Source: Lota lota (Eukaryota; Chordata; Actinopteri; Gadiformes; Lotidae). From it: a stretch of DNA of 64,000 bases. Positions 2,550 to 54,580 of the stretch are shown piece after piece. Within the stretch, counting starts at the first letter, position 1, and the number at the start of each line of letters is the position of its first letter. Where the stretch lies: contig JACYXH010000791.1 in the NCBI GenBank assembly GCA_026745465.1, forward strand, positions 280,001 through 344,000. The letters run 5' to 3'. The notes beneath the pieces were generated by a model that worked only from the letters and a program-made list of their open reading frames with translations, was not told the origin of the DNA and searched no databases. The translations under genes were made by a program, and so were the position numbers.

Positions 2550-2591
2550 GACAGCACTGGACTGGGCCAAGCACTTCAAGCAAAAGATGGC
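2550..2591 (+). CDS. ythdc2: YTHDC2 exon c, left part (before the retrotransposon)
   Basis: The acceptor ...ttgtttcag is followed by G|ACA GCA CTG GAC TGG, giving W-TALDWAKHFKQK-M, the second ankyrin unit of YTHDC2 (the mammalian protein has ALDWAKHF here). The exon is cut at 2591, directly after ATGGC, by the left LTR of the minus-strand retrotransposon. It resumes at 8499 after a second copy of ATGGC. Removing the element and one ATGGC copy would leave one open exon with a proper donor at 8523. Confidence 0.9.
2587..2591 (+). repeat. Target site duplication, left copy (ATGGC)
   Basis: ATGGC directly left of the LTR, repeated at 8494-8498 directly right of it. Five bases is the usual duplication size for Ty3/gypsy-type integrases. 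Confidence 0.92.
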
Positions 2592-3253
2592 TGTCGTAGG
2601 GTAATGTGCCTTTTGGTCCAATTGAGGTTAAGCCACACGTTGAAGTTCAAATGGAGATATTTATTACAAACTACAGAACAAACAAGAACACAGACAGGAA
2701 CTAAGATAACACATAATAAATGTAAAGCGTGACCTTCATCAATGATGGCTCTCGCAACCATCACCAACCGTCTCTCCCCATACAATGAAGCCATCCAGGC
2801 TTAAATAGCAGTAGCAGTTGGTTAGCTCCACCTCTAAGCTAAACCAAGTGATTATAAATCAATTAAACCCTCACATCAATTTTAACCAGCCATAATACCA
2901 AAACAAAAGTATATTATTATCCTAAACCTAATACAAACACAGCACAACTTAATCCATATATTTTACCCACACATATAATAGGTATTTTAAGAATACCTAA
3001 AAATACCCCTCACCATTTACCACCCAGCGCGATCCCGTGACATATATTGCGGAAGTGAATGCAAACTTGCCCTTAATGCAGGAGAACTGTGGTGAGTATG
3101 AGTGATGTGGTTTTACAGACAGACAGGAAATACAGAAATAACATAACGTGCGCAAATGTCCATATGTTGTTAAAACTAGTCTGTCGGCTTCCATGCCGTG
3201 GCGCTTCGTAGTGCTGTACCAATGGTACAACATGTGACGATCACTTCGTCACA
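2592..3253 (-). repeat. LTR (3' LTR of the minus-strand element)
   Basis: 662 bp, beginning TGTGACGAAG and ending CCTACGACA on the minus strand (TG...CA ends). Nearly identical to 7820-8493. It lacks an 11-bp segment (around 3019) and one A (around 2714) present in the other LTR, and differs at a few single bases (about 2793 and 3212). AATAAA on the minus strand near 2660 is a candidate poly(A) signal. It sits directly against the split YTHDC2 exon. Confidence 0.95.
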
Positions 3254-3268
3254 TTACCCCCCTCCTTC
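3254..3268 (-). promoter_or_regulatory. Polypurine tract of the LTR element
   Basis: The minus strand reads GAAGGAGGGGGGTAA directly before the 3' LTR, the expected plus-strand primer for reverse transcription. The RT/RNase H reading frame ends inside it. Confidence 0.85.
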
Positions 3269-5300
3269 AAATGTTTTCGTCCTCGAAAACACGAGACAGG
3301 TAATCGGCAGTCACATTCTGCGCCCCCGGTCTGTACTTCACCACGAAGTTGTATGGCTGAAGGGCCAAATACCACCGTGTAATGCGGTCGTTGGAATCTT
3401 TCATTTTGTGGAGCCACTGCAAGGCCCTGTGATCGGTCTCCACGGTGAAGCTCTTCCCCATCAGGTAGTAGCGCAGAGAGTCTAGCGCCCACTTGAGGGC
3501 AAGGCACTCCTTCTCCACAGTGGAGTACCTGCACTCTCTGGGAAACAACTTCCTGCTTAGAAACATGATCGGTTTCCGGCAACTCTCCTCCCCCTGTAAC
3601 AGAACAGCCCCAAGCCCCACACCAGAGGCATCCGTCTGCACCGTAAAAGGGAGATCAAAGTCTGGCTGTTGCAATACTGGATCACTGCAAAGACAATTCC
3701 TCAAGTCCTCAAAGGCAAGCTGACACTGAGCAGTCCACTTGACCTTGTTTGGACTGTCTTTCTTAGTCAATTCGGTTAAGACGGCTGCCCTACTAGAGCA
3801 GTTAGGTATAAACCGTCTGTACCACCCAACCATCCCCAGGAAAGACCTCACCTGGGATTTAGTTTTTGGTACTGGGGTATCAGTGAGGGCACTCACCTTC
3901 CCCACCTGTGGCCTCACTGACCCACCTCCGATGACAAATCCCAGGTACTCCACCTGTGACTGGGCAAAGGAGCACTTGGAGGGATTCATGGTCAGGCCAG
4001 CATCCTTGATTCGCTGAAGAATGTCTTGGACGTGGACCAGATGATCCTCCCAAGTCTCGCTAAAGACTATGATGTCGTCCAGGTACGCCCCTGCGTAATC
4101 CCAAGCACCTTCCAACACCCCATCCATGAGGCGCTGAAACGTTGCGGGCGCCCCCTTCAGACCAAATGGCATCACCGTGTATTGGTAAAAACCAAACGGT
4201 GTTCTGAATGCCGTCAGGGGTTTTGTCTCCTCTGACAGAGGAACTTGCCAGTACCCCTTACACAGGTCCAAGGTGGTCAGATATCTGGCACAGCCCAACC
4301 AGTCCAGAAGATCGTCCACTCTGGGCATAGGGTAAGGGTCGAAAGTTGAAATGGTGTTCAACTGTCTAAAGTCATTGCAAAAACGCAGAGTACCGTCCTT
4401 TTTGGGCACAATTACAATGGGACATGACCACTCACTGTGAGATGGTTCGATGATCCCCATCTCTTTCATTGTTTCTAGCTCCTTCTTGAGCTTTGGAACC
4501 ATCTGTGCTGGAATCCTGTAGCTCGGGACCCTGATCGGTCCTGGTTCCTTCAGGGTTACGTGGTGTTGAGCCAGCTGTGTGAGGCCAGGAGTCTCAGCAA
4601 ACAGCCCCACCGGACAACAGCTAGCCAGCGCCTCCTGCTGGGAAACCGAGAGGTGGTGCATGTCTACCTGGACTCCAGAACCGTCAGTTGTAGGGAAAAA
4701 CTGCTCATCTCCCTCGTCTTCCTCCACGACCCTCCTGGCAAACAGCACGACCGCAGGCTCCTCACGGGGAACCCACTCCTTCAGCAGGTTGATGTGGAAC
4801 GTCTGCGTCTGCTTCCTCCTCTCTGGCATGATGACCTCGTACGTCACCGGCCCAGTCTTTTGACGAACCACATATGGTCCCTGCCACTTGGCCAATAGAC
4901 TGCTCTCACATGTCGGCAACAACAGGAGAACCTGCTGCCCCGGCTTGAAAGAACGGTCTCTCGAAGACTTGTCATACCACCTCTTCTGGGTGGCTTGTGC
5001 AGCTTTGAGATTTTGCTGCACTTCCTCCGTCAATGTCTCCATCCTGTCCCTCATTTTTTAAATGTAGGACAAAATGTTCACCTGCTTTTCTGGCTGGTCT
5101 CCTTCCCAGGCCTCCTTCAGCACATCCAGTGGACCTCTCACCTTCCTCCCGTAGAGCAACTCAAAAGGTGAGAAGCCAGTGGATGACTGAGGAACCTCTC
5201 GGTAGGCAAACAGCAGGTATGGTAGCCACTCGTCCCAGTCTGCACCTGTGTCCAACACAAACTTCCGCAGCATAGACTTCAGGGTCTGGTTGAGGCGCTC
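3267..5300 (-). pseudogene. Integrase C-terminus, reverse transcriptase and RNase H of the Gmr1-like element
   Basis: Continues the integrase in the shifted frame (5300-5061), meets TAA at 5058-5060, then stays open in the same frame for 595 codons from ATG 5054. The first hundred residues after the stop are the integrase C-terminal module (FKPGQQVLLLLP, LAKWQGPY). Then comes reverse transcriptase with VPKKDGTLRFCNDFRQLN, LDLCKGYWQ and the YLDD catalytic motif (residue about 325), and RNase H with TDASG (about 471), EKECLA and TDHRALQWL. It ends at the polypurine tract. The family normally has INT last; here RT follows INT. The single TAA could be a null mutation or, less likely, a readthrough site. 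Confidence 0.88.
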
Positions 5301-7779
5301 CTACAAGCCCGTCTGTCTGAGGGTGGTAAGGCGTGGTCTTAATAGCCTTGATCCTAAAATACTGATAGACCTGCCTGAGAAACTTTGAAGTAAAGTTTGT
5401 GCCCTGGTCTGTCAGTACCTCTCTCGGGATCCCTACCCTGGTTAACAGCTGGAGAAGCGCATTAGCTACCTGCCTGGCCTTCACATTCCTAAGCGGAAAT
5501 GCCTCGGGGTACCTGGTAGCATAGTCAGAGATAACCAAGATGTAGCGGTTTCCTCTACGACTACGCTCTAGAGGCCCCACAATGTCCATGGCTATTCTGC
5601 TAAATGGTACATCTATAATGGGTAAAGGTATTAATGGTGCCCTGTTACCCTTCTTTCCCGGTGCTGTCAGCTGACACTGGGGACAAGACTTGCAGTACTG
5701 CATCAGCTGAACATACATGTTTGGCCAATAAAACCTCCCTGCAACCCTTTCCCATGATTTGTTCTGGCCTAGGTGACCTGCCCATGGACTAGAGTGCCCT
5801 AACTCTAGCACCTTTTCCCTGAGATCCCTTGGCACAACCAGCTGCTCCCCCTCTTCCCCATGGCGGTACAGTATGCCTTGCCTAAGCCTAAACTTGGGCC
5901 CTTCCGCATTACCACCACCATCCTCTAACAAGTCCTTGTAGAAGGAAGTAAGGGTGACATCGGCTCTCTGTAATTCCCTGATGTCTGCTGGGATTGTGAT
6001 CTGCTCGCTATTCTCCAGTGAAGGTATGGGAACTGTCTCGTGCACTGGGGTCCCTTGAAACCTGTCCCTCCTTCTCTGGCTCCTTGTCTTTACTTGTTTA
6101 GTGGGGTGAGAAAATGGCAACTCATCCCACGTACTGTCCCTTGGTGCCTGTGCCTGTGCCCGAGTAACCACCATGTGACATGCCTTCTCTATATTTAAAA
6201 GTTGCACTAGCCCTGGCATGTCTTTCCCCAATACCACGGGGTATGGCAAGTCCTCCAGCACCCCAACAGTAACCAGGTACTCTTGTCCCTCAACCTCCAG
6301 GTAAATGTCTGCTGTTGGATATGTTTTATTGTGACCATGGACGCAACGTGTGATGACTGTGTGTTCGTGCCTTATCTCCGATTTGGGAATTAGGTGTGCT
6401 TTGACTAATGTCTGATTGCTCCCTGTGTCAATCATAGCCTGCACCTTTTTCCCCCTGATTCCCACCCAAACCAACGACTCCCACTGGTGCTCTGGACCCT
6501 GCCTATCTATACCACACACATATGTGCTTTTAGGCTTTATCAGGGGACACTTAGGCTTAATGTGCCCAGGCTGGCCACAGTGATAACACACTAGGGGTTC
6601 TTTTGCTGGTCTAGGGCTACCACTGGGTGTTAATGGATTGCTTATGGGACCAACATCTCTGGGATGACCACCTGATCTAACTGGGTTCCTGGTGTAGTTC
6701 ACATACTGTCTGCCTTGACCACTCGCCTGACCAATACCCTCAGACCTACCCCATGGAGATGAGCTTGGTGGTTGATCCCCTCCTATCTGGTAGGATCTGA
6801 AGTGTCGACGCGCTGTGATGAAGGAGTCAGCGAGGAGTACTGCCTCTTGAGCTGTGCTGGGGTTATGTTCCCGGATCCACAGCTGAACATCCGTGTTGAC
6901 CATCCGGAGGAACTGCTCCAACACGATCTTCTCCCCGATCTGCTCCTTTGTGTGAGTCTTTGGAGAAACCCACTTCTCATAGAGCTCATTTAGCCTTGTG
7001 AAAAGCTCTCTGGGGGTCTCTTCTGGTAAGACCTCCATTGCTCGGAACTTCAGTCTATAGGTCTCACTGTTAATTTCATACTTAGCCAAAATGGCTGCTT
7101 TGACCTTTTGATAGCATAAAGTGTCCTCCATGTCCATGGCTATGTAGGCCGCTCTAGCTTTTCCCGTTAACAGAGGGACCAAGTAGATTGCCCACTCTGC
7201 TATGGGACACTGGCTCACTGTAGCCATGCGTTCAAATGCCGTCAGGAAGTGTTCAATGTTCTCTTCTTCCAAGAAGCGCTGCATTTTAGGGCCTCTCCAC
7301 CCAGACAGCTGGCCCTGCTGGATCCTTGGTGGACCTGTTACTGCCACCACTTCGGCGTAACCTGGATGCTGCGCTGCTCCTCCAGGACCCGCATCCACTG
7401 CCGCTGGGGTCATCGCACGAACCGCCGCCGACTCCTGGACCATCGCTGCTGGGAACACCGCCGGGTCCGCCGCCGCCTCCCGGACCATCACCGCTGGGTC
7501 TGCTGTTGGAGCTGCTGAGACTGGGGCTGCCGCTTCCATGCGTCCACTCCTGTCCCTAGTAGCTCCCGCTTCAAATTTCTTTAACTGGTGGCCCACATAA
7601 CGCCACCGTTCCTCCTGGGTCTTCTCGAACTCTCTCTGCGCCACGTCCTTCTCCTTTTGAGTCCGCATGAAGTCACGAAACATGGCTCTCAGTTCCGTGA
7701 CTTCAGACTCTTCCATAGCCCCGCCTTCTGCACCTTTTTCCAGGCTGCAATCCTGCTGCTTTCTTCGACGCATGCTCAT
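5161..7779 (-). pseudogene. gag-protease-integrase reading frame of the Gmr1-like element
   Basis: An 872-codon frame. Residues 1 to about 390 are gag: a glutamate/arginine-rich start, an alanine/proline-rich stretch, then a capsid-like region. A CX2CX4HX4C zinc knuckle (CYHCGQPGHIKPKC) begins at about residue 398. The aspartic protease active site DTGS is near residue 450. The integrase HHCC zinc domain (GHSSPWAGHLG..CKSCPQC) is near 663-706, and the integrase core carries the first Asp in MDIVG (about 730) and the second in TDQGTNF (about 789). After YHPQTDGLV the frame slips (near 5302) and runs 30-odd wrong residues to a stop, so the third catalytic acidic residue lies in the other frame. 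The start at 7779 is 40 bases inside the LTR. An inactivating indel is likelier than programmed shifting because no slippery site was seen. Confidence 0.88.
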
Positions 7780-7800
7780 CCCTCATTGGCTACTGGTCCC

Positions 7801-7819
7801 GAAAACCACTGCCACCAAA
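7801..7819 (-). promoter_or_regulatory. Primer-binding-site region of the LTR element
   Basis: Directly inside the 5' LTR the minus strand reads TTTGGTGGCAGTGG, containing the TGG expected where a tRNA 3' end pairs. The primer tRNA was not assigned. Confidence 0.45.
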
Positions 7820-8493
7820 TGTCGTAGGGTAATGTGCCTTTTGGTCCAATTGAGGTTAAGCCACACGTTGAAGTTCAAATGGAGATATTTATTACAAACT
7901 ACAGAACAAACAAGAACACAGACAGGAACTAAGATAACACATAAATAAATGTAAAGCGTGACCTTCATCAATGATGGCTCTCGCAACCATCACCAACCGT
8001 CTCTCCCCATACAATGAAGCCATTCAGGCTTAAATAGCAGTAGCAGTTGGTTAGCTCCACCTCTAAGCTAAACCAAGTGATTATAAATCAATTAAACCCT
8101 CACATCAATTTTAACCAGCCATAATACCAAAACAAAAGTATATTATTATCCTAAACCTAATACAAACACAGCACAACTTAATCCATATATTTTACCCACA
8201 CATATAATAGGTATTTTAAGAATACCTAAAAATACCCCTCACCATTTACCGCGATGGCCTGACCCAGCGCGATCCCGTGACATATATTGCGGAAGTGAAT
8301 GCAAACTTGCCCTTAATGCAGGAGAACTGTGGTGAGTATGAGTGATGTGGTTTTACAGACAGACAGGAAATACAGAAATAACATAACGTGCGCAAATGTC
8401 CATATGTTGTTAAAACTAGTCTGTCGGCTTCCATGCCGTGGCGCTTCGTAGCGCTGTACCAATGGTACAACATGTGACGATCACTTCGTCACA
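7820..8493 (-). repeat. LTR (5' LTR of the minus-strand element)
   Basis: 674 bp direct repeat of 2592-3253 with the same TG...CA ends. As the upstream LTR it would hold the element's promoter and transcribe away from YTHDC2, antisense to the host gene. The extra 11 bases around 8250 relative to the other LTR could be a small duplication or a deletion in the partner. Confidence 0.95.
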
Positions 8494-8498
8494 ATGGC
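8494..8498 (+). repeat. Target site duplication, right copy (ATGGC)
   Basis: Second copy of the 5-bp duplication made by integration into the YTHDC2 exon. It is both host coding sequence and the boundary marker of the element. Confidence 0.92.
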
Positions 8499-8522
8499 AG
8501 AAGATCTACTCAAGTCCTACAT
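8494..8522 (+). CDS. ythdc2: YTHDC2 exon c, right part (after the retrotransposon)
   Basis: Follows the right LTR, starting with the second ATGGC duplication (8494-8498). It continues in the frame of the left part as AEDLLKSY plus two bases, then a GT donor (gtaaaagc) at 8523. This matches the end of the ankyrin region of YTHDC2 (mammalian ...DLLESY). Only 24 bases of intron separate it from a Tc1-like element. Confidence 0.88.
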
Positions 8523-8546
8523 GTAAAAGCACTGTTCAAACACATA

Positions 8547-10128
8547 AACTGCTCAAAAAAATAAAGGGAACACTAAAATAACACATCCTAGATCTGAATG
8601 AATGAAATAATCGTATTAAAAACTTTTTTCTTTACATAGTTGAATGTGCTGACAACAAACATCACACAAAACTTATCAATGGAAATCAAATTTATCAACC
8701 CATGGAGGTCTGGATTTGGAGACACACTCAAAATTAAAGTGGAAAACCACACTACAGGCTGATCCAACTTTGATGTAATGTCCTTAAAACAAGTCAAAAT
8801 GAGGCTTGGTAGTGTGTGTGGCCTCCACATGCCTGTATGACCTCCCTACAACGCCTGGGCATGCTCCTGATGAGGTGGCGGATGGTCTCCTGAGGGATCT
8901 CCTCCCAGACCTGGACTAAAGCATCCGATACCTCCTGAACAGTCTGTGGTGCAACGTGGCGTTGGTGGATGGAGCGAGACATGATGTCCCAGATGTGCTC
9001 AATTGGAGTCAGGTCTGGGGAACGGGCGGGCCAGTCCATAGCATCAATGCCTTCCTCTTGCAGGAACTGCTGACACACTCCAGCCACATGAGGTCTAGCA
9101 TTGTCTTGCATTAGGAGGAACCCAGGGCCAACCGCACCAGCATATGGTCTCACAAGGGGTCTGAGGATCTCATCTCGGTACCTAATGGCAGTCAGGCTAC
9201 CTCTGGCGATCACATGGAGGGCTGTGCGGCCCCCCAAAGAAATACCACCCCACACCATGACTGACCCACCGCCAAACCGGTCATGCTGGAGGATGTTGCA
9301 GGCAGCAGAACGTTCTCCACGGCGTCTCCAGACTCTGTCACGTCTGTCACATGTGCTCAGTGTGAACCTGCTTTCATCTGTGAAGAGCACAGGGCGCCAT
9401 TGGCGAATTTGCCAATCTTGGTGTTCTCTGGCAAATGCCAAACGTCCTGCACGTTGTTGGGCTGTAAGCACAACCCCCACCTGTGGACGTCGGGCCCTCA
9501 TACCACCCTCATGGAGTCTGTTTCTGACCATTTGAGCAGACACATGCACATTTGTGGCCTGCTGGGGGTCATTTTGCAGGGCTCTGGCAGTGCTCCTCCT
9601 GCTCCTCCTTGCACAAAGGCGGAGGTAGCGGTCCTGCTGCTGGGTTGTTGCCCTCCTACGGCCTCCTCCACGTCTCCTGATGTACTGGCCTGTCTCCTGG
9701 TAGCGCCTCCATGCTCTGGACACTACGCTGACAGAAACAGCAAACCTTCTTGCCACAGCTCGGATTGATGTGCCATCCTGGATGAGCTGCACTACCTGAG
9801 CCACTTGTGTGGGTTGTAGACTCCGTCTCATGCTACCACTAGAGTGAAAGCACCGCCAGCATTCAAAAGTGACCAAAACATCAGCCAGGAAGCATAGGAA
9901 CTGAGAAGTGGTCTGTGGTCACCACCTGCAGAACCACTCCTTTATTGGGGGTGTCTTGCTAATTGCCTATATTTTCCACCTGTTGTCTATTCCATTTGCA
10001 CAACAGCATGTGAAATTGATTGTCAATCAGTGTTGCTTCCTAAGTGGACAGTTTGATTTCACAGAAATGTGATTGACTTGGAGTTACATTGTGTTGTTTA
10101 AGTGTTCCCTTTATTTTTTTGAGCAGTG
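8547..10128 (-). mobile_element. Tc1-like DNA transposon, apparently intact transposase
   Basis: 1582 bp between TA dinucleotides (8545-8546 and 10129-10130). The ends are inverted repeats built on CTGCTCAAAAAAATAAAGGG at the left and its complement (CCTTTATTTTTTTGAGCAGTG) at the right. It carries one long minus-strand transposase ORF. Size, TA target and DD34E signature fit Tc1/mariner, in a lineage with highly similar copies in many fishes. It begins 24 bases after the donor of the broken YTHDC2 exon. Confidence 0.93.
8794..9876 (-). CDS. Tc1-like transposase (DD34E), full-length
   Basis: A 360-residue ORF. The true start may be the second Met (residue 16, MRRSLQPTQ), since transposases of this family usually begin there. 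N-terminal paired-like helix-turn-helix ([20 protein letters not shown]), then a basic GRRR-like hook (RRRGGGRRR). The catalytic triad is Asp167 (FTDESRF), Asp258 (MQDNARPH) and Glu293 (PIEHIWD), with 34 residues between the last two, the DD34E spacing. No stop or frameshift. The enzyme cuts and pastes its element at TA sites. It is one of only a few apparently complete transposon ORFs here, so this copy may be recent. Opposite-strand ORFs at 9101-9768 are shadows. Confidence 0.93.
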
Positions 10129-11426
10129 TATATAGTCAGTAAATGATGACTTATCTTAAAATATAGTTAAATGTAAATGTATGTCCTCAAAAAGTGCTTG
10201 TTTTTGCCACTGACAGGCTCAGATCATATTCTATCACTATGGAAAGTATCCCTACATAGGAATAAAACTTGTTTCTTTAGCTTTCGCTTGAGCTGGACTC
10301 TTTGTTATTCTGTCCAACAAAGTCTTGCTCAAGAAGAAGTCTCGCTCTGAAATCACGTTGTTGCACGGTATTTCCCTACTGTCATTAGAATCTCAACTCT
10401 CATTCATCCTAATCTTTAAAATAACACTAAGCTACGCTTTCTCTAGTCTAACACAACAATCTATACTCTCTCCAGCTCTCCCTCAAGTTTCCACCATTAT
10501 ATTCCTGCAAACACTCAACCTTGCGAGACTTCTCCTTGAGCAAGAAATGATTGGACACAATAACAAACAGACCGTGATCAAGCGAAAGGTAGGGCTTTTA
10601 GAGGACGTACATTTAAGGGGCGCTATTGCCCCAAAAGATTACATTGCAGCCCATTTTTGCAGATTAAGGCTGCAGCGTTCTCGCTGAATACTGGACCAAT
10701 TAAAGAAATTGTTGTCCGCGTTAGTCCCTAAGACCCAAAATGATCGGAAAATAGGGTCCAGGTTGTAAAGACCCAAAGTTTTCATTTAAGTATTCGAGAA
10801 ACCTAACCCCCCGTCGGACACACCTCATATAGCCAGTGAAGACGAGTTTATGCTCAGTCCTTTCACCAAAATATCCTTTACATTTTTTAGGGGATTTTTT
10901 AATCTAAGTGTAACATTTTGTAGTTAAGGGCAGTTCACGGATGAGGGGGATTATAACATGTGCATTGTTTCCCTGTTTAAAAAGTACTCTTTTGGAATAT
11001 GTTGGTATTCAAAACGAAACTGTTGGGATTAAACTGCACACAGTCATGTTGTCAAAGCCACCTATATTCATTTACCGCAGTGCAAATTAACATTGGCAAT
11101 TGTGATTCGTGAAACTGATTTATTTGCAGGGAAGAGCCATCACAAATTGACCGTGGCATGATTAATGTTAATTAATGTTGCTTTATTACAAAACAAATAC
11201 CTACTGGAACCTTGCACAATACAGTACAATACAGACCACTGTAGTCCTTGGTAAAGGAGGGGTTACAGTAGGGGAGGTATCCAGTTGGTTGCAATCTGCT
11301 TCCTCACCGCTAGTTGCTACAAAATTATTTACACCGGACCTTTAAGGTAAGCTATAAGTTCCTGTATTTTGCTTTATTTTTTATAAATGGGGGTGGCGAT
11401 CCGGGGTCATTTATGGAGCCCCTAAG
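10129..11426 (+). other. YTHDC2 intron with a dispersed-repeat copy (inverted)
   Basis: About 10590-11130 belongs to a dispersed repeat that recurs near 15530-16010 and 61590-62000 (direct) and 20880-21330 (inverted). Shared blocks include CCTTTCACCAAAATA, GTTGGTATTCAAAAC and CCTATATTCA. The block around 10597-10633 also matches the left flank of the palindromic element at 48080-48117. No gene seen. Confidence 0.55.
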
Positions 11427-11554
11427 GAATATGGAGCTCAGCACCGGGGACCGGAACTACCTTCGGAACTACCACTGCAGCTTAAAAAATGACCAGATCC
11501 ATCTTGACATCCTTGTTGACCTGCTGCATCACATCTGCTTAAGCTCTGAAGATG
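11427..11554 (+). CDS. ythdc2: YTHDC2 exon d (linker after ankyrin insert)
   Basis: Encodes NMELSTGDRNYLRNYHCSLK..., then HLDILVDLLHHICLSSEDG, the linker before the helicase C-terminal domain (mammalian ...DLIMHLLYNIC...). The donor G|GTGAGT at 11555 is strong. The acceptor is less sure: the AG at 11425-11426 fits the phase-2 donor of the preceding exon, but its upstream sequence is poor in pyrimidines. The same frame is open back to 11314, so the true exon could be longer. A better pyrimidine tract ends at 11313 but gives the wrong phase. Confidence 0.78.
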
Positions 11555-43362: not shown

Positions 43363-43859
43363 GTACGTATAGTCACGCTGTGTCCGAACAGCCCTGTTTA
43401 TGAAGCCAAAATGATCGCCACTCTCATCTGTGTGTAGTGGTCTCTATCAGTATGCACAGCTTTGCTAGGTTAAAGGTTAAATATGTGATTTCTGTAGCTA
43501 GGGGTCTCTCAAAAAAAAAGAAAAAACTATTGTGAAGTAGAGTGGAAACATGGGAGTTGTTGTCTTCGGGACCTTTGCTGGTGAAAATCTATCTGACGTG
43601 ACCCAGGCAGAAATCATGTTCATGGATGAGTTAATGTATTAAAAGTTTTATTCGGGTTACGTTTAGTCACGTTTAATCACGTTATGTCTTTTCATTCTAA
43701 TGAAAAAGCCACAAGTAACAACTTAGATTAGATAAGTGGACTACCCAAACAGCTGTAGATTATTATGTGGGGTAGCCCAGCGCTACTATCCATGTTCAAA
43801 ACAATCATACAAGAAATAACTGAGTGTGTTGAACATTGTTGTAACTTTATAACGTTACC

Positions 43860-44100
43860 GTACACATTAGTGTTTTCCACCAAATTAGATTCTCTAAACA
43901 ACAGCCTAACTCAAATGCAATTAAACCAGATGTCTCACATTTCAAAATGTTCACAATGGATTTACAACAGTAAAAAAACACGGAAAGAACTGCGTGGCAA
44001 ATGGAGGTCTAGTATGGGTATAATGCACATAGACTGTAATACAGGTATAATACAGGTTAAACTGAATTACAGGGGTCATATTAAAGCAGTTTTCGTTAGT
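43860..44100 (+). repeat. Partial copy of the MITE interior
   Basis: Resembles 36860-37110 in the same order (CTAAACAACAGCCTA / TTAAACAATAGCCTA, ATGCAATTAA, TCTCAC, GTATAATGCAC-like, CAGGTTAAACTG). Its ends were not located. Probably a second, older copy of the 35781-37420 element. Confidence 0.5.
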
Positions 44101-44599
44101 AATTTAATTTTTTTTTTAAACATTTTTTTAATATTCTCGCCTCGCCTCCCCTCCCGATAAGCCCAGTCTGCTCTGACTGGTCAGCTGGCCCACTCTGTTG
44201 TGCTTGGTCAAATGCGTAGCATGTATGTCGGCCATCTCATTCCCAAGTCTTGAGCCGATGTAAACATTACCGCTATCAATGGCTTCGGTTCAGCCGTACC
44301 TTTTCTCTTGCATACTAACTGTATACTTGCATACTAACAAAGCCGGAACTGTAATTTCTCTACATCACGGTAAAAAACTAGTGTTTGCATGTATTTTATA
44401 ATTTCTTATTTCGGTGCACTTGTGGACACCTGTTTTATATTATCTATTTATTCTTACACAACTTCATTTGAAATACAAGTTTTACAGTGAAACACATTTT
44501 GCTTCCTGGATCAATATTTGCCCTATACAGTGATGTTGCCTCTGGAAGTATTTGTTTTATTATACAACACTATTTGTTGTAAATCATTCTTATTTTACT

Positions 44600-45165: not shown

Positions 45166-45974
45166 AAATAGCCACTTTGTGTTTTTAAAGAAAGGACTTT
45201 TCTGAATATATCTTCTTTATACATTTGTGAAGTGGGCCCATACTTATAAAAAATACATATATTTTGTTATGTTTAATACAAATGTTTTATAAAGTAAAAG
45301 TGGGCCTGCTTTTAATTGCATTGCCGTGCATTCACCATTCTTGGACTTAGGGAAAACACCCTAAGAAGATGGCTTGACCACACATATGCATGTAAACAAA
45401 TGCGTATAGAAAAAAAACACACCAACACGTTATCCTTGTTTTAAACACAGCCCCAGCTGTGGAACTCTGGAACAACTACACAGTTGGGTATGTAGAGAAC
45501 AGCCTTCATGTAACAGAGCTAGGTAAAAGGCACGAAATGTAAGGAGAACAGTGGCCAAGAGTTTGGTAAGTAATGGTATATAACTGTGGTTGTAACATTA
45601 CAGCTTGTTTAATCACAAATTCAACAATGTTTAACATGTTATGATCAGAAAACCATCTGCATATGTCTAGATTTAGAGGTAAAGGTGGGCCTAAAGTAGA
45701 TAAGCAAATAATTAGAACACCATAATGGTAGGGTATATTAATGTTAAGGACTCAGCCCATAGCTACTTGTAACTTTTTGCCACGCCTCTATTTTTCTTTT
45801 TTTTGTTTTTTTTTTATTTTTCAGGTGTTGCAGTGCCCCCTTTTTTTTTTGTTTTTTTTGTGCCGGTTTGAAAGCCGGACTACATTTTTGATCTATTTTT
45901 GCTGTTAGATGCCTTTGTGGCCCAGATGATTAATCTCTTTTCATCTTTTTTTTGTCTGATGTGTAATTTTTTTT

Positions 45975-46892
<918 letters not shown>

Positions 46893-48113: not shown

Positions 48114-48267
48114 CCCCTGTTACACCGTATTCTGTGACCTACCGTATTCTGTGACCCCAGGGGGCGCTGTTGCACATTTTCTGCAACATGCACGAGTTTG
48201 AAGGCATAAAGTCGTTCATGTGCGGGAACATGCACGAGCTTCAAAGTAAACATCGTATCGCCATCGC

Positions 48268-48591
48268 TCACTCGGGATGGGTTAGTTCGTTTTGTATAGC
48301 CCGCTGAGTGGATGAAGCAAAGCGGTTGATTTGGCTCTGTGGTGGCACGATGATGACGGGTCCTTCTTTCGTGATGCAAACGTGAATATAGAAACGGTGT
48401 TGGTCAATTCTAAACAGCATTTTACACAGTAGCCTATAGTAGGAAATACTCAAAGGTAAATCAACGTAATTAAACGCTGATTGTTGCTTCTTATGGGGAA
48501 AGAAGCAACGTTGGTGGATCGTAGTAAACGCCCCATCCATAGTATGTGTCTGTAGAATGCTAATCAAATCAAATGTATTTATAAAGCACAT
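48268..48591 (-). other. Mirrored 107-codon ORF, left arm copy
   Basis: Starts MCFINTFDLISILQ and ends TQRAIQNELTHPE. Its twin on the plus strand at 49832-50155 differs at only two residues (ITKEG/IKKEG and IVPPQ/IVSPQ). No domain recognised; no signal peptide or membrane segment is evident. The near-identity simply follows from the palindrome, so coding function is unproven. Confidence 0.3.
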
Positions 48592-49015
48592 TTAATTACA
48601 AGGGGATGGGGGAGAGATCTTTCTTCATTACGAGTCCCTCTCTGATTGCTCAAACTGTAGTTGTTTTTGTTATAATGCCCACAGTTTTTTGATTACTGCA
48701 GTTTATGAAATAAACTATGAACTAATGCCTGTATGGGCGTGAAGTGTGCGTGATTGCAGTGACTTGGGTGGATTTGCAGCGTAAGGGTGATTTTAGTGAC
48801 CCAAGAGCACAATTTTCAAAAGGCCGACAGTATTGCGCCCTGAGTATGGTGGCCACTGAAGAGGCAGTAGCCTATAGTTCCAGTGGAAGCACAGCGGGAC
48901 GAAGCACCCGACAGAAACCTGTTTTTCATTTGTCATCCTGTAAAATTATTCATGTCTGCGATCATCACAGAGTCCACACGCAACAGGAAACCATCCACGA
49001 TAGGTCACAATCCAT

Positions 49016-49400
49016 GATAGCTGGCCGTCGTATTCTGTGACCCCACTGTAAATGCTATCGTGGATGGTTTCCTGTTGCGTGTGGACTCTGTGATGATCGC
49101 AGACGTGAATAATTTTGTACACATACAGATATGAGGATGCCAAATGACCTGAACACATTTGGTTGGGGTTTAACTATTTTTTTTTCGCATTTACAGTGGG
49201 GTCACAGAATACGACGGCCAGCTATCATGGATTGTGACCTACCGTGGATGGTTTCCTGTTGCGTGTGGACTCTGTGATGATCACATACATGAATAATGTT
49301 GTACACATACAGATATGAGGATGCCAAATTACCTGAACACATTTGGTTGGGGTTTAAGTAAAATAAAATCGCATTTACAGTGGGGTCACAGAATACGACG
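49016..49400 (+). repeat. 184-bp tandem repeat at the centre of the palindrome
   Basis: Units beginning GGGGTCACAGAATACGACGG recur at 49198 and 49382 (period 184), each followed by GCTATCATGGATTGTGACCT, TGGTTTCCTGTTGCGTGTGG and CATACAGATATGAGGATGCC. A partial unit fills 49056-49197. The first bases of the left arm's inner end carry the same unit inverted. Confidence 0.88.
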
Positions 49401-49831
49401 GCCAGCTATCATGGATTGTGACCTATTGTGGATGGTTTCCTGTTGCGTGTGGACTCTGTGATGATCGCAGACATGAATAATTATACAGGATGACAAATGA
49501 AAAACAGGTTGCTGTCGGGTGCTTCGTCCCGCCGTACTTCCACTGGAACTATAGGCTACTGCCTCTTCAGTGGCCACCATACTCTGCGCAATACTGTCGG
49601 CTTTTTGAAAATTGTGCTCTTAGGTCACTAAAATCACCCTTACACTGCAAATCACCCAAGTCACTGCAATCACGCACACTTCACGCCCATACAGGCATTA
49701 GTTCATAGTTTATTTCATAAACTGCAGTAATCAAAAAACGGTGGGCATTATAACAAAAACAACCACAGTTTGAGGAATCAGAGAGGGACTCGTAATGAAG
49801 AAAGATCTCTCCCCCATCCCCTTGTAATTAA

Positions 49832-50155
49832 ATGTGCTTTATAAATACATTTGATTTGATTAGCATTTTACAGACACATACTATGGATGGGGCGTTTACT
49901 ACGATCCACCAACGTTGCTTCTTTCCCCATAAGAAGCAACAATCAGCGTTTAATTACGTTGATTTACCTTTGAGTATTTCCTACTATAGGCTACTGTGTA
50001 AAATGCTGTTTAGAATTGACCAACACCGTTTCTATATTCACGTTTGCATCAAGAAAGAAGGACCCGTCATCATCGTGTCACCACAGAGCCAAATCAACCG
50101 CTTTGCTTCATCCACTCAGCGGGCTATACAAAACGAACTAACCCATCCTGAGTGA
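49832..50155 (+). other. Mirrored 107-codon ORF, right arm copy
   Basis: Plus-strand twin of the ORF at 48591-48268, same length, two residue differences. No recognised family. Its start overlaps the dispersed motif AAATACATTTGATTTGATTA that is common in fish repeats, which argues against a real gene. Confidence 0.3.
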
Positions 50156-50309
50156 GCGATGGCGATACGATGTTTACTTTGAAGCTCGTGCATGTTTCCG
50201 CACATGAACGACTTTATGCCTTCAAACTCGTGCATGTTGCAGAAAATGTGCAACAGCGACCCCTGGGGTCACAGAATACGGTGGGTCACAGAATACGGTG
50301 TAACACCCC

Positions 50310-51187: not shown

Positions 51188-51460
51188 AATATAGATGCCA
51201 TGAACCCATGTGAGGACTTGACCGACCTTGGTCACCATCTGGCTGATCTGTCCATAGAGCCATACCTTGGCAAGATGGTGCTGTGTGCCATAGTGCTCAA
51301 GTGCTTGGATCCTGTCTTGACCATCGCCTGCACACTGGCCAACAATGACCCATTCACACTTCCTACTCAGGCCTCTCAGAAGAAGGCTGCTGTTCTCAGC
51401 AGAAAGTGGTTCTCTGCCCATACCTTCAGTGACCACATGGCTCTTTTAAGAACTTTTCAG
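51188..51460 (+). CDS. ythdc2: YTHDC2 exon k (HA2 domain)
   Basis: A 273-base exon, 91 codons, with acceptor ...cccctgcag and donor gtcaaa. It encodes NIDAMNPCEDLTDLGHHLAD, then LSIEPYLGKMVLCAIVLKCL, then DPVLTIACTLANNDPF and the TQASQKKAA stretch, ending HMALLRTFQ. This is the HA2/ratchet region of DEAH/RHA helicases (LG..L..LP..P.LGK...A...C.DP.LTIA). It is the longest and best-preserved exon here. Phase 0 at both ends. Confidence 0.97.
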
Positions 51461-51614: not shown

Positions 51615-51741
51615 GCATGGCAGAAGGCCCGTAGTGATGGCTGGGAGCGATCATTCTGTGAGAAGAATTTTCTGTCACAGGCAACCATGGAGATCATCAT
51701 TATGATGCGAACACAACTGCTTGGACAACTCCGTGCAATTG
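51615..51741 (+). CDS. ythdc2: YTHDC2 exon l (HA2/OB junction)
   Basis: A 127-base exon with acceptor ...tatgtacttag and donor G|GTAAGT. It encodes AWQKARSDGWERSFCEKNFL followed by SQATMEIIIMMRTQLLGQLR and AI-G. It matches the W..A...G...FC..NFLS..T...I..MR.QL region of the family. The final glycine is split with the next exon. Confidence 0.96.
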
Positions 51742-54374: not shown

Positions 54375-54580
54375 GTTTTGTTAGAGCACGGGGCCGCAGT
54401 GACATCCGTGATGTAAACATCAACTCCGAGAACTGGGCTATTGTGAAGGCGGCACTGCTAACTGGCACATACCCCAAACTGGCCCACATTAACCAAGAAA
54501 GCGGTTCCATCTCTAGCAGTGGCCAGACACAGATTTCCTTCCATTTGACTTCAGTCTTGAGTCAGCCACACTACAAAAAG
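54375..54580 (+). CDS. ythdc2: YTHDC2 exon m (OB-fold region)
   Basis: A 206-base exon with acceptor ...gtttttcttcag and donor gtaagg. It encodes G-FVRARGRSDIRDVNINSENW, then AIVKAALLTGTYPKLAHINQ, and ends HLTSVLSQPHYKK. It matches the G(F)VRARG..DIRD.N.NSENWA..KAAL..G.YP segment of YTHDC2 and the start of the OB-fold domain. The next exon was not found up to 64000, so the following intron exceeds 9.4 kb. Confidence 0.96.

Follow-up and report, generated by a model that had tools for sequence, protein, structure and literature searches.

YTHDC2 is a single-copy gene in mouse. Mouse YTHDC2 (ketu) is reported to be required for fertility (PMC5832417), seven YTHDC2-related loci are reported for the zebra finch (PMC4377847), and in hagfish and lamprey YTHDC2 belongs to the germline-specific (eliminated) set of genes (PMC10972751). 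Here we present an analysis of a 64,000-nucleotide stretch of the burbot (Lota lota) genome (contig JACYXH010000791.1, below C791, positions 280,001 to 344,000; hereafter the window), in which one copy of ythdc2 is interrupted within its 66-base exon 'c' by a complete 5.9-kb long terminal repeat (LTR) retrotransposon. The reading that we favor, at a probability of about 0.86, is a recent insertion of this Gmr1-like element into one member of a young, multicopy amplicon of ythdc2, whose parent and less damaged sister copies would carry the function. Within this amplicon, the window copy has most likely become a fresh pseudogene.

The retrotransposon and the interrupted exon

The element occupies positions 2592-8493 on the minus strand, in the orientation opposite to that of ythdc2, which lies on the plus strand. 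The pair of LTRs, the target-site duplication and the encoded domains bear out an earlier first-pass annotation, made from the sequence by itself, that had proposed a complete LTR retrotransposon in a ythdc2 exon. Comparison of the two LTRs, which share the ends TGTCGT...GTCACA, revealed 2 substitutions, one 1-nucleotide indel and one 11-nucleotide indel between the left LTR (2592-3253, 662 nucleotides; the 3' LTR of this minus-strand element) and the right one (7820-8493, 674 nucleotides; the 5' LTR). The 11 bases missing in the left LTR are present in the right LTR and in five of six LTRs taken from other genomic positions (L003-L006 and L008, with no match to the search string in L007), so that the indel is most likely a loss from the left LTR. 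A 5-base target-site duplication, ATGGC, flanks the element at 2587-2591 and at 8494-8498 (plus strand), and empty sites carry a single ATGGC.

Analysis of the open frames against Pfam yielded two long coding segments on the minus strand. The frame at 5164-7782 encodes a SCAN-like gag (PF02023, 88.2 bits at a cut-off of 27) with a zinc knuckle (PF00098, 25.2 bits at a cut-off of 20.8), followed by protease (PF00077) and integrase (PF17921 and PF00665), and the frame at 3270-5057 encodes the C-terminal piece of the integrase (PF22938), reverse transcriptase (PF00078) and RNase H (PF17917/PF17919). A short pol frame between them in the frame list (5058-5300, minus strand) ends in a stop codon and has no Pfam match. 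The resulting order is gag, protease, integrase, reverse transcriptase, RNase H, with rve and Integrase_H2C2 upstream of RVT_1 and RNase H. Placement of integrase before reverse transcriptase is the mark of the Gmr1 group, and Gmr1-type elements were first described from Atlantic cod. Judged by its domain order, SCAN-like gag, LTRs and duplication, the element thus appears to match the Gmr1-like Ty3/gypsy class. SCAN is reported in more than half of frog Gmr elements (PMC4131045). Owing to a pol interrupted by one frame change plus one stop, this copy is, by its predicted frames, non-autonomous as it stands.

Both parts of exon 'c' were delimited by copy comparison and frame joining. The left part (2550-2591, plus strand) includes the first ATGGC, and the right part (8499-8522, plus strand) is followed by a donor GTAAAA at 8523; joined without the element and one ATGGC, they read TALDWAKHFKQKMAEDLLKSY in frame, as the first-pass annotation had stated. 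A search of the entire assembly (575 Mb, 867 contigs) by exact patterns located the joined 24-nucleotide empty-site sequence at seven other places and the filled site only on C791, while reversed-pattern controls gave 0 for both; the empty site was also seen by direct reading of sequence. Thus, the predicted empty site really exists. The search for a second YTHDC2 suggested by that annotation therefore returned further near-identical copies, with exon 'c' whole at seven places. Its description of the insertion as a break in a gene essential for meiosis is accordingly unsupported, because the seven empty sites lie in this very assembly and the phenotype seen in mouse cannot be carried over to one of several copies; we therefore set aside the loss of an essential gene.

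Translation of a transcript reading through into the LTR stops after KMAVVG, and an AATAAA motif is present at 2715 on the gene strand. Skipping of exon 'c' removes 66 nucleotides and, as proposed earlier, keeps the frame, with either the true or a downstream acceptor of exon 'd'. Treatment of the element as an intron was tried for one donor-like site (GTAATG at 2601, combined with the AG at 8499-8500) and rejected as it shifts the frame. Transcripts of the window copy might therefore stop after KMAVVG, terminate at a polyadenylation signal within the LTR, or leave out exon 'c'; given the acceptor and 3'-end lesions described below, a working protein would be unlikely from any of them.

Copies, lesions and alternative readings

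In this assembly, ythdc2 exists in about 7-8 copies that are nearly identical, in addition to a parent-like one on contig C94. A probe made of the 5' flank and the left part of exon 'c' matched at full length at eight places (C791, C766, C518, C505 twice, C295, C126 and C94), with 99-100% identity for six sisters and 98% for C94; this probe contains a repeat, so that 40 of 2576 candidates were scored. A probe for exons 'q' and 'r' matched at nine places (C791, C769, C766, C599, C594, C505, C295, C62 and C94; 9 of 9 candidates scored), where eight amplicon copies are 99.6-100% alike over 3.5 kb and C94 is 98.35-98.54% identical to them. Around exon 'c', identity of the window copy to the six sisters is 99.15-99.69% over 3.9 kb, and exons 'a', 'b' and the left part of 'c' are identical in all seven amplicon copies. 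The window copy carries 10 private substitutions, none of them in exons 'a', 'b' or 'c', which set it off from six mutually agreeing sisters and argue that it is a locus of its own.

The C94 copy, colinear with the window copy in blocks over 18 kb at about 1.5% divergence, looks like the parent of the amplicon in this sequence comparison. A Tc1-type DNA transposon (8544-10131, minus strand), identified by Pfam and having terminal inverted repeats and a 374-amino-acid open transposase frame, is carried by amplicon copies and is absent from C94. As C94 lacks this and other inserts, it scored only 77% in a first alignment of all copies and was instead compared by local alignments made piece by piece; within the Tc1 part, an alignment with C94 has no meaning. 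Between C94 and the window copy, 5 of 1056 exonic bases differ in seven exons, with 2 amino-acid changes (exons 'a' and 'd' were taken with their shorter ends, and exon 'q' with three bases of intron), vs. about 341 of 22145 noncoding bases, part of this total being a sum over local-alignment rows whose aligned lengths are approximate (Fisher p 0.0025 for the contrast). The two LTRs differ by 2 substitutions in 662 aligned bases (0.3%), a value close to the private flank divergence of the window copy from its six sisters (10 of ~3890, 0.26%) and well below the 1.5% of C94. By these distances, the insertion would therefore postdate the split of the amplicon from its parent, and it probably also postdates the split of the window copy from its sisters.

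The window copy bears two further lesions. Reading frames of all its other visible exons are open, as initially reported, but the 3' splice site of exon 'd' (11389-11390, plus strand) is GG, whereas it is AG in C94. By exact patterns, the AG form occurs at seven places (C94, C126, C295, C505 twice, C594 and C766) and the GG form only on C791; direct reading found AG in five of six sister stretches, as the sole difference in 252 bases, whereas the stretch read from C518 did not reach exon 'd'. Exon 'd' itself spans 11391-11554 (plus strand) and aligns to residues 540-594 of the closest public protein, P0003 (see below). The start at 11427 given for this exon in the first-pass annotation follows a downstream AG and would apply only if the mutated acceptor fails. 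The second lesion concerns the 3' end of the gene. The last two ythdc2 exons match eight places (8 of 8 candidates scored); they are inverted relative to the strand of exon 'q' on C791 and C505 and colinear with it on C94, C62 and C599, the C599 match being cut by the contig end, while matches on C594, C412 and at a second C791 place are without assignment to a copy. Being common to two contigs, the inversion is probably real. The second C791 place (C791:96448-96944, outside the window) is a further copy of the last two exons with no exon 'q' or 'r' match nearby.

As to the remaining exons (all on the plus strand), exon 'a' (376-505) is 100% identical to residues 432-474 of P0003, and its end is most likely at 505, a prediction based on an extra G residue in P0003. 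Exon 'b' (630-756), in the ankyrin region, is also identical in C94. Exon 'q' (51188-51460), which encodes an HA2_C domain by Pfam, was further located by probe and by alignment to P0003; exon 'r' (51615-51741) by probe and copy alignment; and exon 's' (54375-54580), the last ythdc2 exon found within the window, by comparison with C94 and alignment to P0003.

Taken together, an empty site at seven of eight places, a private acceptor lesion and an inverted 3' end favor, from among the three options offered initially (a segregating null allele, a fresh pseudogene with a second copy elsewhere, or exon skipping), the fresh pseudogene. In the proposed scenario, the Gmr1-like element would be a recent arrival that integrated in the ordinary, integrase-mediated way and duplicated 5 bp of its target, and the lesions of the window copy would be tolerated because the C94 parent and the less damaged sisters carry the function, which is itself inferred for these other copies.

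The strongest competitor, possible although clearly less probable, is that the insertion is a polymorphic allele segregating at an otherwise working amplicon copy. The young age implied by LTRs with only 2 substitutions and the restriction of the insertion to one contig are in line with it; a segregating insertion would then affect one copy of a multicopy family. However, the same contig has a private splice-site change and an inverted 3' end, and allele frequency is not readable from one assembly. Rather doubtful is the idea that just one or two loci, represented redundantly by haplotype contigs, underlie the amplicon copies. This could account for the four copies on C766, C505 (C505A), C295 and C126 that differ by 0-1 bases in 3.9 kb, as well as for the single member sequence behind the sole public burbot protein, and haplotype redundancy may inflate the copy count. 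It is insufficient alone, however, because C505 carries two copies in opposite orientation and at least four sequence versions exist besides C94 (C791, C505B, C518 and the C766 group), too many for one diploid locus; furthermore, the assembly size of 575 Mb is close to an estimate of 565.64 Mb (PMC8650494).

An assembly artefact, with reads of the element wrongly joined into a collapsed repeat, is very improbable. Several copies more than 99% identical and an LTR with 291 first-look genomic candidates do make for a hard assembly, and several sister contigs end within the gene. Nevertheless, the perfect 5-bp duplication on both sides, the TG...CA ends, the best non-self match of the left LTR being the right LTR (98%, with the next at 97%, among 40 of 291 candidates scored) and flanks 10 substitutions away from six agreeing sisters, as expected for a separate locus, all speak against it. 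Equally remote is continued use of a shortened protein made by skipping exon 'c', which would be in frame with either acceptor of exon 'd' but leaves the mutated true acceptor and the inverted last two exons unrepaired.

Several considerations weigh against the insertion into a redundant copy as we read it. Its basis is the sequence of one assembly, a second burbot assembly being seen only through one protein; two assemblies are in print, of 584 and 538 Mb (PMC8650494, PMC13011446). Amplicon matches lie on ten other contigs of 66-376 kb; several of these end inside the gene, and none of the amplicon copies was followed intact from its first exon to its last. The acceptor lesion, being a change of a single base, may stem from an assembly error. 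The exon comparison with C94 does not demonstrate constraint on the amplicon branch, on which about 8 differences would be expected if unconstrained (P(<=5) = 0.18). Finally, P0003 is a single member sequence on one contig, and the amplicon is not visible in that annotation, in which it may be collapsed, unannotated or absent.

Three features elsewhere in the window were recorded in passing: a 925-base run of approximately 95% T (45967-46891), which is perhaps an assembly artefact; a large inverted repeat (48118-50305) with 653-nucleotide arms that are 98% complementary and a 184-nucleotide tandem repeat inside; and a 133-amino-acid open frame in a ythdc2 intron (43759-44157) with a weak, below cut-off sulfotransferase match.

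Protein identity and the YTH domain

The closest public protein to the exon translations is P0003, an unnamed Lota lota product (among the best 120 of 5422 matches listed), followed by a record labelled Lepidogalaxias, an unnamed Merluccius protein and Gadus YTHDC2, and then by fish proteins, most of which bear the name YTHDC2 or RNA helicase. Compared exon by exon, P0003 shows a few residue differences from the window copy (the listed 92% identity includes parts left out of the composite query). It shares the C94 version at two of them (Q in KHFQQK and I in LDIIVD) and differs from both copies at EPQRN. Its precomputed Pfam accessions correspond to what we take to be R3H, a DEAH helicase with an ankyrin insert, and HA2/OB.

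The YTH domain (PF04146) is absent from P0003-P0007 (burbot, hake, two cod and the Lepidogalaxias-labelled record) and present in most of the other 115 proteins listed, six of which were counted without it. Polymixia, which is closely related to the cod group, also has the domain in its YTHDC2. A tblastn search with a human protein as query gave no YTH match on the examined stretch of C791, and a genome scan, which split exons can escape, found four uninterrupted YTH domains and one partial, none on ythdc2 contigs. Loss of the domain through the rearrangement on C791 was considered and rejected: the C-terminal residues of P0003 are those of the inverted last exon of this contig, and the listed cod and hake proteins are also without YTH. 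The absence thus appears to be general to cod-like fishes and not a property of one copy. In a maximum-likelihood tree of 32 proteins (midpoint root), the burbot, hake, cod and Lepidogalaxias-labelled sequences share one long branch (100/100 support), which is compatible with fast evolution or with an old paralogue and does not decide between them.

The presence within this cod-like group of a YTHDC2-like protein labelled Lepidogalaxias salamandroides, an unrelated fish, could be taken for horizontal transfer. In a control with cod uracil-DNA glycosylase, however, the Lepidogalaxias-labelled record again fell with the cod group, at 88%, equal to Merluccius and vs. 82% for the best named fish outside the group (among 120 listed), and no ordinary YTHDC2 of L. 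salamandroides was found among the best 120 matches for a salmon query. The same pattern in two genes is more simply explained by, and suggests, mislabelling of the public records P0004 and P0190, and the transfer was rejected.

Comparison with described systems

A transposon hit on a redundant copy is in itself ordinary, and the filled and empty sites within one genome make this a clean example. Of more interest to specialists may be the recent amplification of a meiosis-entry gene rather than the insertion. The burbot family might even be a sex-linked or selfish germline amplicon, in which the number of copies (some of them inverted) rises under selection on the dosage of this meiosis-entry helicase, and single copies meanwhile degenerate through inversion, retrotransposon insertion or loss of a splice site; we regard this as a tentative and rather unlikely possibility. 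If the amplicon is sex-linked or germline-biased, it would provide a direct test of why ythdc2 is repeatedly amplified. Our literature searches found no report joining ythdc2 with burbot or with a gadiform and, among the matches listed, no amplification of a fish ythdc2; the sole match combining ythdc2 with a B chromosome was a diabetes study.

Comparison with known systems places the locus as follows. The element shares with Gmr1-type elements the integrase before reverse transcriptase, a SCAN-like gag, TG...CA LTR ends and a 5-bp duplication; it differs in having a pol interrupted by a stop and a change of frame, and its class is set by domains and not by a reverse transcriptase tree. The mouse protein, a helicase of the same family, likewise has an R3H domain and carries its ankyrin insert between the core domains of the helicase (PMC5832417), but its C-terminal YTH domain is without counterpart in the listed cod-like proteins. 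In hagfish and lamprey, this same germ-cell gene family resides in a special genome compartment; their YTHDC2 is eliminated and germline-specific, whereas the burbot amplicon is known from assembly sequence. A parallel is the zebra finch family, which reportedly also arose by multiplication within a lineage and includes truncated members as well as one or more that lack the YTH domain. Unlike in the zebra finch, however, the burbot copies are nearly identical, and the absence of YTH apparently extends to cod-like fishes as a whole.

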